Source: an uncultured Pelagibacteraceae bacterium (GTDB taxonomy: Bacteria > Pseudomonadota > Alphaproteobacteria > Pelagibacterales > Pelagibacteraceae). Taken from it: a stretch of 64,000 nucleotides of DNA. Below, piece after piece: positions 23,192 to 27,933 of this stretch (position 1 is its first letter; every line of letters begins with the position of its first letter). The stretch is from NCBI GenBank assembly GCA_902628495.1, contig CACONH010000003.1, positions 42,487-106,486 on the forward strand. Direction: 5' to 3'. Both the position numbers and the translations under genes were made by a program. The notes beneath the pieces were generated by a model, which was given only the letters and a program-made list of their open reading frames with translations, was not told where the DNA came from and did not search any database.

Positions 23192-23587
23192 ATGACTCAA
23201 AAGAAAGAATATTTATCAAAAAATCAAAAAATAGTTTTAGATATTATTGAAAAATCTGCACAACCTATGAAAGCGTATTCAATATTGTTTAATGTTCAAA
23301 AAAAAGGTTTAAAAGCACCTCCTCAGGTTTATAGAGCGTTAGATAAATTGGTAGAGATAGGAAAAATTCATAAAATTGAAAGTAGAAATGCATTTATTGC
23401 ATGTAGAAATTCGGCTTGTACAATTACAAATGCTACAGCATTTTCTATTTGTGAGTCATGTGAAGATGTAAAAGAAATAAGTAGCTCAAAACTATCGAAA
23501 TACCTATCAAATTTTCAAGATAAAGAAGGTATGAAATTCAACAAATACAATCTTGAATTTTTCGGTCTGTGCAAAAAGTGTAAGTAA
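23192..23587 (+). CDS. zur: Zinc uptake regulator, Fur family
   Basis: Zinc-responsive repressor likely to bind the twin box before znuC. The 131 residues have an N-terminal winged helix (APPQVYRALDKLVEIGKIH) and the structural zinc site CESC (87, 90) and CKKC (127, 130). At the sensor site His60, Cys71 and Glu95 match my recollection of E. coli Zur ligands, but the second histidine aligns with Asn80, and an extra Cys76 lies nearby. It is encoded after znuCB, so it is probably autoregulated through the same operator. Confidence 0.88.
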   Translation: MTQKKEYLSKNQKIVLDIIEKSAQPMKAYSILFNVQKKGLKAPPQVYRALDKLVEIGKIHKIESRNAFIACRNSACTITNATAFSICESCEDVKEISSSKLSKYLSNFQDKEGMKFNKYNLEFFGLCKKCK

Positions 23588-23638: not shown

Positions 23639-23860
23639 ATGTTTGTAAAAAAATACCTTAAATGGATAAGCACATTTCTAGTTTTAGTTGGCATTCTATT
23701 AACTAATCTAAATATATATCCACTTAATATATATTTTCATGGATTGGGAGTTGTTGGATGGACTATAGCTGGATTTTTAGCGAAAGACAAAGCTATAATG
23801 ACAAATTTCGGTTTACAGATACCACTATTTTTAGTTGGCATTTATTCAGTTGTATTTTAA
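23639..23860 (+). CDS. Small conserved-looking membrane protein of unknown function
   Basis: I do not recognise a family. The 73 residues run MFVKKYLKWISTFLVLVG and contain about three hydrophobic segments (11-27, 32-46 with GLGVVGWTIAGF, 60-73), ending in ...GIYSVVF. There is no signal peptide, cysteine or obvious catalytic motif. It has one of the best Shine-Dalgarno sites in the window, implying efficient translation. It lies 51 bases after zur and 163 bases before the PiT-like transporter, all on the same strand, so a shared function is possible but unproven. Confidence 0.75.
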   Translation: MFVKKYLKWISTFLVLVGILLTNLNIYPLNIYFHGLGVVGWTIAGFLAKDKAIMTNFGLQIPLFLVGIYSVVF

Positions 23861-24023
23861 AGATTTTCTAGACATCTATTATAGATAGTTTAATTAAGAC
23901 CAATCCCCGTATTGATTCTCAAATAAATAAATTTTCCATGTAGCAAAAAAAATTTCATAGTTTAAACAATGCTTAAGTCATGAATCGATGGAACCGAAAA
24001 CAATAATATAAAGGGAGAAAAAA
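23861..24023 (+). other. 163-base leader before the PiT-like gene, no assigned element
   Basis: One of the longest gene-free stretches in the window. It ends in a good ribosome binding site, AAGGGAG (24011-24017), 6 bases before the ATG. Near its start a weak hairpin ATCTA-tta-TAGAT could end the upstream transcript. I looked for a riboswitch or small ORF and could support neither. A promoter is likely but I cannot place it. Confidence 0.4.
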
Positions 24024-24992
24024 ATGGAAATGGCTTTGATTTATACAGTAATTGGCTTTGGCCTTGCTGGATATAGTGTAATAGGAAACGACTCAATTCA
24101 AACATTAGGAACTTTCATAGCATCCAAACAGAAATGGTTTAAATGGTATGTTTTAGCATCTGCAGCATCTTTTGTAATGATACTTGCTTTAGCATGGGGT
24201 TGGTATAGCTACAATGGAGACATATCTTATGGAAGACTAACTCAAATTCCTTATCAGGAAATTCAATGGTATCATGCTGTTGCACCAGCAATACTTTTAG
24301 TTCTTACAAGAGTAGGTATTCCGGTATCAACAACTTTTTTAGTGCTTTCAGCTTTTGCTTCAACAGTAGTTTTGGAGAAAATGCTCATGAAAAGTGTTGT
24401 GGGTTATGGATTAGCTGCAATGGTTGCATATGTTTGTTGGATAGGAGTTTCCAGATTTATTAACGAAAAATTTGACGAAGTAAAAGGTGATTTTTGGATT
24501 TCTTTTTGGAGAAATTCTGTATGGGTAACATCAGGCTGGTTATGGTGGGTCTGGTTATCACATGATGTAGCTAATATAGCTGTGTATTTGCCAAGACAAT
24601 TAAGTATTGAGTTATTAATTGTTGTGATGGCTTATTTCACAATATTATTATTTTACATCTTTTATATTCAAGGAGGACGTATTCAAACAGTGGTTTTAGA
24701 AAAAACTGGTACTAGATACGCCCGGTCAGCAACAATAATTAACGTTATATATGCTGCAGTCTTATTTTATTTTAAAGAACTTAATGACCTTCCAATGTCG
24801 ACAACATGGGTATTCGTTGGTTTATTATGTGGTCGAGAGCTTGCAATCGCTACAATGAATAAAGACTATAAATTAGGATATGTCTTTCCATTAATTGGAA
24901 AAGATTTTCTTAAAATGGTATTTGGCCTAACCGTTTCAGTAGGTATAGTTCTTGCAATTCATTACGTGATAATTCCAAATAATTGGTTTTAA
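24024..24992 (+). CDS. Divergent PiT-family-like membrane transporter
   Basis: The 322 residues form about ten membrane segments and show a two-fold repeat like the inorganic phosphate transporter (PiT) family. The first half has IGND (20-23) and GIPVSTT (98-104); the second has SHDVAN (179-184) and DLPMSTT (255-261). The spacing from the Asp motif to the STT motif is nearly the same in both halves (78 and 77). The canonical GANDVANA and PVSTTH are only partly kept, so substrate (phosphate, sulfate, other anion) is uncertain. It has a strong Shine-Dalgarno site, follows zur and the 73-residue protein, and ends at a bidirectional terminator. Confidence 0.7.
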   Translation: MEMALIYTVIGFGLAGYSVIGNDSIQTLGTFIASKQKWFKWYVLASAASFVMILALAWGWYSYNGDISYGRLTQIPYQEIQWYHAVAPAILLVLTRVGIPVSTTFLVLSAFASTVVLEKMLMKSVVGYGLAAMVAYVCWIGVSRFINEKFDEVKGDFWISFWRNSVWVTSGWLWWVWLSHDVANIAVYLPRQLSIELLIVVMAYFTILLFYIFYIQGGRIQTVVLEKTGTRYARSATIINVIYAAVLFYFKELNDLPMSTTWVFVGLLCGRELAIATMNKDYKLGYVFPLIGKDFLKMVFGLTVSVGIVLAIHYVIIPNNWF

Positions 24993-25003
24993 ATATATTT
25001 TTG

Positions 25004-25031
25004 TGGTCGTGTTAATTATTTAACACGGCCA
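25004..25031. terminator. Bidirectional terminator overlapping the 3' end of manC
   Basis: TGGTCGTGTTAA (25004-25015) pairs with TTAACACGGCCA (25020-25031), giving a 12-base-pair stem (one G-U) and a 4-base loop. A T-run does not follow closely, but flanking DNA is A/T-rich. It serves both the PiT-like gene and the convergent valS-ilvD-manC transcript; the right arm encodes the last residues (GRVK) of ManC. Confidence 0.75.
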
Positions 25032-26218
25032 TAAATGTCTTGATATCTAACAATATCTGTCTCTTTAAGGATTGAACCTATTTGTGCTTCTATAATTTTT
25101 ACTGGTTTTTTAAATGGATTTTCAATTCTATGAATAGCTCCTAATGGAATATAAATAGTTTCACCAGGTTTCTTTAGGAATTTAATCTTATTTAAGGTAA
25201 TCTTTGGAATTCCATGAGTAACTACCCAATGTTCTGATCTATGGAAATGTTTTTGAAGACTTAAAATGCCTTTAGGTTTAACAAATAATTCTTTAATTAA
25301 AAATTCTTTGCCTTTAAATAAGTTTGTGTAGCTGCCCCATGGTCTATGAAATACGTTTTTCTTTTTAAAATATCTACTTTTAATCTTTCCGTACATTTTG
25401 CAGATTTCTTTCCAGCTACCTAGATCTGACCATGGAATATCAAGCTTGATCGCATTGATATTTTTAGTTTTCTCAAGTATTGCGTAATCAAACGATTTAG
25501 CTGTGGCTTTAGAAAATGATTGTTTATTTAAATAATAAACATTGCTTTTATATTTAGCTTTTATTACAGCTTTGTTACAGTTTCGAAAAATATTAGGCTG
25601 ATATTTCTTAAAATTATTAATAATTGAGTCTTTTCTCAAAAAGAACATTCCAGAATTCCAATATCCTTTTTGTCTAATTACTTGTTTTGCTCTCGATACT
25701 TTAGGTTTTTCAATAAATTTGGTGACCTTATTAATACTCTTTTTTTTCTTGGTGATAAAATATCCATACTCACTAGATGGACTTGTTGGCTTTATGCCGA
25801 AAATAAATACGTTTTTTTCATCTAAATTTGACTTATTTTTATTAATAGCTGTTATTAATTTGTTCGGCTTTTCAATTAAATGATCTGCAGCAAAATACAT
25901 TAAAGGCTGGTTATATGGAACATCTTTAATCAAAGCTGATGCTAAAATTGCAGGAGCAGTATTCTTTTTTGCTGGTTCTAAAATAATCTTATACTTTTTA
26001 ATTTTACTTTTCTTTAAAGCTTTTTTTACATCTTTAATATACTTTGAATTAGTACTTATAATTGGGTAATCAAAAACTTTACTTTTAATTCTTTCAAAAG
26101 TTTTATTAATTAAAGTCCAGCCGCCGAAATCTATGAATTGTTTTGCTTGATGATTAGATTTTTTGGGCCAAAGTCTAGTACCTGCCCCACCGCATAAAAT
26201 AACCGGTCTAATTTTCAT
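25016..26218 (-). CDS. manC: Mannose-1-phosphate guanylyltransferase / mannose-6-phosphate isomerase type II
   Basis: Makes GDP-mannose for surface polysaccharide. The 400 residues have an N-terminal nucleotidyltransferase with VILCGGAGTRLWPKK and the FIEKPKVSRA site, and a C-terminal cupin with RPWGSY, LQKHFHRSEHWVV and GETIYIPLGAIHRIENP. It is shorter than the E. coli enzyme (478) but has both domains, so it is probably bifunctional. It shares one base with the ilvD stop. Its final codons lie in the terminator stem. A sugar-nucleotide gene downstream of valS and ilvD is an unusual mixture. Confidence 0.88.
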   Translation of the reverse strand: MKIRPVILCGGAGTRLWPKKSNHQAKQFIDFGGWTLINKTFERIKSKVFDYPIISTNSKYIKDVKKALKKSKIKKYKIILEPAKKNTAPAILASALIKDVPYNQPLMYFAADHLIEKPNKLITAINKNKSNLDEKNVFIFGIKPTSPSSEYGYFITKKKKSINKVTKFIEKPKVSRAKQVIRQKGYWNSGMFFLRKDSIINNFKKYQPNIFRNCNKAVIKAKYKSNVYYLNKQSFSKATAKSFDYAILEKTKNINAIKLDIPWSDLGSWKEICKMYGKIKSRYFKKKNVFHRPWGSYTNLFKGKEFLIKELFVKPKGILSLQKHFHRSEHWVVTHGIPKITLNKIKFLKKPGETIYIPLGAIHRIENPFKKPVKIIEAQIGSILKETDIVRYQDIYGRVK

Positions 26219-27933
26219 TAAATATCAGCGTAAACTTTAACCTCGTTTTTACCACCAGGATGTGTCGGTGCTCCTAAATATGCTGGTCCAACGGTTTGTG
26301 CATACTTCCAAAGAGTTCCATTACCAAAGTTAATCTTTTTAGGTCTCCATTTTTTACGTCTTTTTTGCAATTCTTTTTTGGACAATCTAACATTGATAGT
26401 TCCTTTTTTAGCATCAATGTCTATTACATCACCGTTTCTAAGTAATGCAATTGGTCCTCCAACAGATGCTTCTGGACCAACGTGACCAATACAAAAACCT
26501 CTTGTTGCACCTGAAAATCTACCATCAGTAATAAGCGCTACCTTCTCTCCTTTTCCTTGACCGTAAATTGCACCAGTTGTCTGTAACATTTCTCTCATAC
26601 CAGGACCACCTTTTGGACCTTCGTATCTAATAATAATTATGTCTCCATCTTTATATTTTTTATTCTTAACAGCTTTATAAGCAGACTCTTCTGTATCAAA
26701 ACATCTTGCTGTTCCTGTAAATTGTAATTTTTTTAATCCTGCAACTTTCACAATTGCTCCTTCTGGTGCAAGATTCCCTTTTAAACCTACAACACCTCCA
26801 TCATTGGAAAGTGGATTGTTATATTTTCTCATAACTTTTTGTTTTGGATTAAACTTGATATTTTTAAGATTTTGTCTCATAGTTTTTCCTGTAACAGTCA
26901 TACAGTCACCATGGATATATCCACCATCTAACAAAGTTCTTAATAACATTGGTACACCACCTGCTAGCCACATATCTTTTGCAACATATCTTCCACCTGG
27001 TTTTAAATCTGCAAGATAAGGAGTTCTTTTAAAAATTTTAGCAACATCCATTAAATCAAATTTAATTCCTATTTCATTTGCTATAGCTGGTAAATGTAAT
27101 GCAGCATTAGTTGATCCTCCAGTTGCTGCAACAATCGTTGCTGCATTTTCTAATGCTTTTCTTGTAACAATATCTCTTGGTCTAATATTTTTTGCTAATA
27201 AATTCATTACAGCTTTTCCACTTTGTAATGCAAATTTATCTCTTTGTTCATAGGGTGCTGGAGTTCCAGCTGAATAAGGTAATGCTAATCCCATCGCCTC
27301 TGAGACACATGCCATAGTGTTTGCTGTAAACTGACCTCCACAAGCACCAGCACTTGGACAAGCTTTTAATTCTAATTTTCTTAAAGCATGTGCATTCATT
27401 TGTCCTGAAGAATACTTTCCTACTCCTTCAAAAACATCTACTACTGTAACATCTTTACCGTTAAATCTTCCAGGAAGTATTGAGCCTCCATAAATAAATA
27501 CACTTGGCACATTTAATCTAACCATTGCCATCATCAAACCAGGTAAAGATTTATCACATCCTGCAACACCAACTAAGGCATCATAACAATGACCTCTTAC
27601 AGTAAGCTCAGTTGAATCAGCAATTACATCTCTTGAAACTAAAGAGGATTTCATTCCTTCATGTCCCATTGCGATACCATCAGTAACCGTAATTGTACAA
27701 AATTCTCTTGGTGTTCCTCCAGATGATTTAACACCCTTTTTAACTGACTGTGCTTGTCTCATTAAAGCAATATTACAAGGCGCAGCCTCATTCCATGTTG
27801 AAACTACTCCAACAAAAGGTTTTGCAACATCTTTTTCTGTTAATTTCATTGCATAATAAAAAGATCTTTGAGGTGCCTTATCTGGTCCTAGAGAAGTGTG
27901 CCTGCTTGGTAGTTTTTTCTTATTAAATTTCAT
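26218..27933 (-). CDS. ilvD: Dihydroxy-acid dehydratase
   Basis: Dehydrates dihydroxy-acids to the 2-oxo acids of valine and isoleucine, using an Fe-S cluster. The 571 residues contain [13 protein letters not shown] and [17 protein letters not shown] with the cluster cysteines, the Mg-binding [11 protein letters not shown], and the C-terminal [19 protein letters not shown] (quoted in part). It shares one base with both neighbours (valS upstream, manC downstream), suggesting translational coupling of a branched-chain amino acid enzyme to valyl-tRNA synthetase. Confidence 0.96.

Follow-up and report, generated by a model that had tools for sequence, protein, structure and literature searches.

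The 322-residue protein encoded shortly downstream of zur in the window (the whole 64,000-nucleotide stretch of uncultured Pelagibacteraceae DNA analyzed here) is very likely the inorganic phosphate (Pi) importer of those SAR11 cells that lack the PstSCAB transporter. Its sequence and predicted structure place it in a divergent branch of the PiT superfamily, outside PHO4. Four kinds of observation bear on this proposal: the predicted fold, a near mutual exclusivity with Pst and PhoU, the exact exchange of one gene cassette for another, and an association with arsC, MIP, and pstS genes. The substrate, like the coupling ion and the affinity, is one that we infer.

SAR11 is the most abundant group of heterotrophs in the surface ocean, and how it acquires phosphorus influences models of ocean nutrients, in which pst genes are used as markers of phosphate stress. 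A diverged transporter that falls under the Pfam PHO4 cut-off, and for which NCBIfam has no model, can leave the true route of phosphate into Pst-less cells unnoticed.

The Locus

The SAR11 genome that contains the window measures 1.0 Mb at about 92% completeness; the nearest named records, at 98% protein identity, are uncultured Pelagibacteraceae and Candidatus Pelagibacter single-cell genomes. The genes znuCB and a FUR/Zur-type gene directly precede the two reading frames of interest, and the features discussed below are:

23192-23587, + strand: zur/FUR-family regulator, left flank of the slot (identical flank in pst-bearing genomes)
23639-23860, + strand: 73-residue membrane protein, DUF6552 (PF20189; Pfam E = 2.5e-11, 44.2 bits against a gathering cut-off of 27)
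23975-24016, + strand: conserved non-coding element, AAGTCATGAATCGATGGAACCGAAAACAATAATATAAAGGGAG, whose 3′ end is the ribosome-binding site of the transporter gene
24024-24992, + strand: divergent PiT-like transporter, 322 residues, putative Pi (arsenate) importer from its fold, motifs, and exclusivity with PstA and PhoU
25016-26218, - strand: mannose-1-phosphate guanylyltransferase-like gene (named from sequence), right flank of the slot and basis of the flank tree
26218-27933, - strand: ilvD-like gene (named from sequence), right flank of the slot

An earlier note on this DNA had placed both reading frames directly after zur and had counted their Shine-Dalgarno sites among the best of the window. 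The coordinates are confirmed, and by duplex energy the 73-residue gene ranks first and the 322-residue gene third of 60 window ORFs, a list that includes spurious ones.

A Divergent Branch of the PiT Superfamily

The first half of the 322-residue protein contains G21-N22-D23 followed by a PVSTTF hairpin (100-105), and the second half SHDVAN (179-184) followed by a PMSTTW hairpin (257-262), with Asp-to-Ser spacings of 79 and 78 residues respectively. These motif pairs are not chance, since their residues are invariant in 37 relatives: N22, D23, Q26-G29, P100-T103, F105, H180, D181, A183, N184, P257-T260, and W262. By sequence the match between the halves is weak but in register (profile-profile p about 0.008-0.013). 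The two-fold repeat that the earlier note had read from these near-equal spacings is clearer in the AlphaFold model, where each unit consists of long helices and a hairpin broken at the STT motif: predicted helices 3-34 and 41-62, hairpin 82-108, and helix 114-145 in the first, and helices 156-186 and 195-225, hairpin 230-278, and helix 284-316 in the second. A PiT protein is expected to have this arrangement, a pair of inverted repeats with one re-entrant hairpin apiece.

The AlphaFold (AF2) model had a pTM of 0.78, then of 0.84 with a pLDDT of 85 when 37 sequences were used. In a Foldseek search of the PDB, its sole matches with E < 0.001 were the two chains of 6L85, the sodium-dependent phosphate transporter TmPiT (E 2.4e-5, probability 1.00, TMq 0.63-0.68, 15-16% identity). 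TmPiT was reached by fold comparison only; the sequence profile of the family had no match in the PDB.

Similarity to PHO4 (PF01384) is distant. The window protein scores 10.5 bits against a gathering cut-off of 33.7, and no Pfam or NCBIfam model reaches its cut-off on it. PHO4 is matched by 31 of 37 family members at E values up to 1 (best 5e-11), a phage member (L310) scores 21.5 bits, also under the cut-off of 33.7, and in the scans that report an annotation cut-off no family member reached it. Profile alignment with ordinary PiT proteins is co-linear, with p = 2.4e-4 for the N-terminal halves. A circular permutation was considered, because in local Pfam matches each half of the protein aligned with the opposite half of PHO4, and was rejected: profile-profile tests of the separate halves favor the ordinary order (C-C p = 0.018, C-N 0.09, against the N-N value just given).

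The family thus shares with PiT/PHO4 proteins (PF01384, SLC20, TC 2.A.20; TmPiT 6L85) the predicted fold, repeat plan, and order of motifs, the ND in the first helix, the Asp of both signature motifs (D23 and D181, both invariant), and the P-x-S-T-T hairpins. It differs in length (322 residues for the window protein, 402 for TmPiT) and in its signatures, as the earlier note had seen: where PiT proteins have GANDVAN twice, this family has [AG]ND[SA][IV]QTLGT in the first half and SHD[VMI]AN, without GAN, in the second, and F105 and W262 are invariant at the positions of the STTH histidines found in the ordinary PiTs compared. The suggestion of a PiT-like transporter therefore stands, on the predicted fold, the distant homology to PHO4, and the replacement of the pst operon described next.

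Replacement of the pst Operon

In pst-bearing SAR11 genomes the gene order is znuA-znuCB-zur, DUF6552, phoB-phoU-pstBACS-phoR in the opposite orientation, a sugar-phosphate guanylyltransferase-like gene, and ilvD. In carriers of the PiT-like gene, identical flanks enclose this one gene in place of the seven-gene phoR-pstSCAB-phoU-phoB operon. Between one carrier locus (L114) and one pst locus (L204), the left flank, including DUF6552, is 98.2% identical over 4734 bp and the right flank 97.4% identical over 4107 bp; what lies between them is 2.3 kb (arsC, MIP, and the transporter gene) in L114 and 7.1 kb (the seven pst/pho genes) in L204. Genus g5 has an equivalent swap in another context (L266 vs. 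L256). On a tree of the flank gene, which may be affected by recombination, the transporter/pst state changes 16 times, at least six of them on well supported branches. The two systems share the chromosomal slot and presumably the substrate, but PstSCAB-PhoU-PhoBR combines an ABC transporter and its binding protein with two-component control, and is not homologous to the PiT-like protein. A near-identical pair of loci with swapped cassettes, together with many transitions, amounts to a natural experiment on high-affinity versus low-cost uptake.

Two genomes possibly represent intermediate states of the swap. G011 has both systems side by side, with the transporter gene adjoining phoR (L208 8012-16147), while G229 has pst and, 2.1 kb from pstA, a 28-residue C-terminal remnant of a PiT-like gene (C4:78304-78387). 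The neighbor of the transporter gene, or of pst/phoR, in the second SAR11 family is a gene of the TMEM164 family, in some cases accompanied by DUF1826 (L131 6493-7212, L140 4996-6482, L212 10933).

HIMB59 has a phosphate-related flexible genomic island at a fixed genome position, sometimes with an inserted Pit (PMC10734472). The exchange of phosphate genes at a fixed position is common to both cases; all of the HIMB59 islands, however, kept pst, which in the loci described here is replaced.

Distribution

Of 247 Pelagibacterales genomes, 42 have a full-length transporter gene: 25 in the window's genus, four in a second genus of the same family, and 13 in another family. PstA was called at E below 1e-30, with weak matches of 1e-11 to 1e-13 taken as other ABC permeases. 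It is present in 180 of the 247 genomes: in one of the 42 carriers, with 41 lacking it, and in 179 of the 205 non-carriers, with 26 lacking it (Fisher p = 9e-28, uncorrected for phylogeny; some of this exclusivity reflects common descent within clades). None of the 41 Pst-less carriers has PhoU, which G011, G229, and seven of seven pst-bearing controls all have. Both transport systems are present in G011 and G562. Since 26 SAR11 genomes lack PstA and the PiT-like gene alike, loss of Pst alone does not require the latter.

Two of the genomes lacking both systems show what else can stand in this position. In G056, which also lacks PhoU, the slot holds genes for UgpC, UgpE, a glycerophosphodiesterase, and a 2H-phosphodiesterase-like protein (L221 11108-15263). 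In G046, an apparent Ppx/GppA-type exopolyphosphatase gene, read from its sequence, follows DUF6552-arsC-MIP (L222 1190-2701).

An ordinary PHO4 protein above the cut-off was found in none of 41 Pelagibacterales genomes, and the NaPi cotransporter PF02690 in none of 36 SAR11 genomes tested. Of five carriers outside SAR11 that are 90% complete or more, four have no PstA, and a PHO4 protein above the cut-off was found in none; three of the four without PstA encode PF02690, so the PiT-like gene is not the sole candidate for a Pi importer there. A wider set of 399 proteobacterial genomes yielded only the window's genome and two doubtful fragments, and plasmids yielded no homolog.

The genes pstSCAB-phoU, phoB, and phoR are reported from only 55% of offshore Pelagibacteraceae genomes, with the remaining genomes apparently dependent on pitA alone, the product of which is presumed to be a permease for phosphate or sulfur with lower affinity (ISME J 2025, PMC12636525, accessible text). 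Because of the absence of ordinary PHO4 proteins from the 41 genomes above, this pitA is very probably the PiT-like gene described here. The transport module that the earlier note had called possibly new is thus not wholly so: the reliance of Pst-less SAR11 on pitA is already outlined in that paper. The accessible text of PMC12636525 gives presence and absence only and does not mention the exchange of cassettes, the divergence of the sequence, the arsC/MIP neighborhood, or the phage copies, and a literature search that covered few subscription papers found no earlier report of any of these four.

Proposed Function and Alternative Substrates

By analogy to TmPiT, each of the two inverted repeats would contribute a re-entrant P-x-S-T-T hairpin, with Pi bound between the hairpins, and cation coupling would involve D23 and D181, the conserved Asp residues of the two repeats; in seawater the cation is likely to be Na+. 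Acquiring one gene for seven, the cell would exchange ATP-driven high-affinity uptake and Pho control for a cheap secondary transporter, probably of lower affinity and outside Pho control. Arsenate would enter with phosphate as a side substrate, which would explain the arsC and aquaglyceroporin genes often found beside either alternative.

The order DUF6552-arsC-MIP-transporter is found in 26 of 81 carrier loci, with MIP but no detected arsC in 18 more, and the DUF6552-arsC-MIP trio is also beside pst in most of the pst loci fetched. The arsC product matches the thioredoxin-type arsenate reductase at E = 6.5e-19, below the curated cut-off. The presence of arsC and an aquaglyceroporin gene beside either importer fits arsenate entry through that importer. 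Individual loci with arsC-like and aquaglyceroporin genes between DUF6552 and a phosphate transporter, of one type or the other, include L139 (6446-7520), L221 (9896-10997), and L229-L260.

Transport of another oxyanion is one alternative: the protein might, for example, carry sulfate, like the PiT-family CysP, with only an indirect link to phosphate. Its signature residues differ from the GANDVAN and STTH of phosphate PiTs, so substrate specificity could have shifted, and sulfur is the other substrate named for pitA in PMC12636525. However, the reciprocal loss concerns Pst and PhoU, the position is a phosphate slot with arsenate detoxification genes, and phage pstS adjoins the transporter gene; in addition, assimilatory sulfate reduction is absent in SAR11 (PMC5069961, accessible text). 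We consider this alternative quite unlikely.

As a second alternative, the protein might transport metal (zinc)-phosphate, or zinc itself as part of the neighboring Zur/Znu system. Metal-phosphate is a known substrate of PiT proteins such as PitA, the transporter gene directly follows zur in the window, and znu/zur adjoin it in most of the SAR11 loci that reach that far. However, znu-zur are found beside the locus in its pst form as well, so the adjacency follows the slot and not the transporter; no znu is found beside the transporter gene in genus g5 carriers, in G011, or in carriers of other families, and the examined phage copies have pstS, not znu, as a neighbor. The adjacency therefore looks incidental, and the metal-phosphate idea of the earlier note, which gained nothing beyond it, is improbable.

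A Pi importer thus remains the preferred reading of the 322-residue protein. The third alternative concerns its small neighbor, which the earlier note took for an accessory subunit. DUF6552 has no known function, and the literature search found no paper on it. A two-gene module, with the 73-residue protein as a dedicated subunit, would be in line with the adjacency of the two genes in most SAR11 loci, with the first-ranked Shine-Dalgarno site of the smaller one, and with one phage contig (L326, 3222-3446) in which a 74-residue DUF6552-like gene lies directly upstream of the transporter gene (hmmsearch E = 3e-8; Pfam 27.9 bits, cut-off 27). It is nevertheless most improbable: DUF6552 occurs in 211 of 247 Pelagibacterales genomes against 42 for the full-length transporter, adjoins pst where the transporter is absent, lies outside the swapped cassette and inside the conserved flank, is about 21 kb from the transporter gene in G004, and is found in just one of 80 viral loci. 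The small gene is therefore not specific to the transporter, nor its product a dedicated subunit; a more general role at the phosphate slot is possible.

Phage Copies

At least 544 confirmed viral stretches in IMG/VR encode relatives of the transporter. The 80 kept here (L269-L348) are 58-65% identical; some of these contigs are short and could be misassigned. Examples, all on IMG/VR contigs, are:

L310, 5001-5921: phage copy of the transporter gene
L322, 1168-2127: phage copy of the transporter gene
L328, 3204-4163: phage copy of the transporter gene

In L310, genes for a T4-type major head protein and a scaffold protein directly adjoin the transporter gene, and transporter-bearing viral contigs also carry genes for UvsX, ribonucleotide reductase, DNA polymerase, terminase, a tail protein, DnaB, and a clamp loader. 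A pstS gene ends 60-62 bp upstream of the transporter gene in L322 and L328, and lies just upstream of it in L289 too. Among the 50,697 phage records of INPHARED the family is absent, with no homolog in cultivated phages, and the BFVD viral protein structures gave no match below 0.001.

In a tree built from 88 copies, four changes separate the phage from the bacterial sequences, at least two of them forced; this suggests exchange of the gene between phages and bacteria, in a direction that the tree does not give. Its replacement of pst in the SAR11 slot and its wide spread among phages make the transporter probably an exchangeable way to import phosphate. A more far-reaching reading, which we offer only tentatively and would not yet favor, is that this separate PiT branch is a mobile single-gene phosphate importer common to SAR11 and to T4-type marine phages not yet cultivated, which would carry it as an auxiliary metabolic gene, in some cases paired with pstS, and would have moved it into SAR11, where it has repeatedly replaced the Pst/Pho operon in one slot. 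Should the phage family be confirmed, marine phages would carry a phosphate importer of their own, a phosphorus gene found in none of the INPHARED records.

A Conserved Element Upstream of the Transporter Gene

The 42-bp element at 23975-24016 is nearly invariant, with the consensus AAGTCATGAATCRAT(A)GGAACCGAAAACAATAATATAAAGGAG. Two explanations for it were rejected. A riboswitch is not supported by RNAalifold, which found no consensus structure (0.0), or by Rfam, where the element had no match and the single match in a scan of the region was sub-threshold and elsewhere. As a leader peptide, the window's copy would read MNRWNRKQ*, but a stop would come earlier in loci with ATCAATAG or ATCGATAG, so the element is not coding. 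The element is absent from the viral contigs. It is possibly the site of a dedicated regulator; the fetched loci contain 101 copies, all of them directly upstream of the transporter gene.
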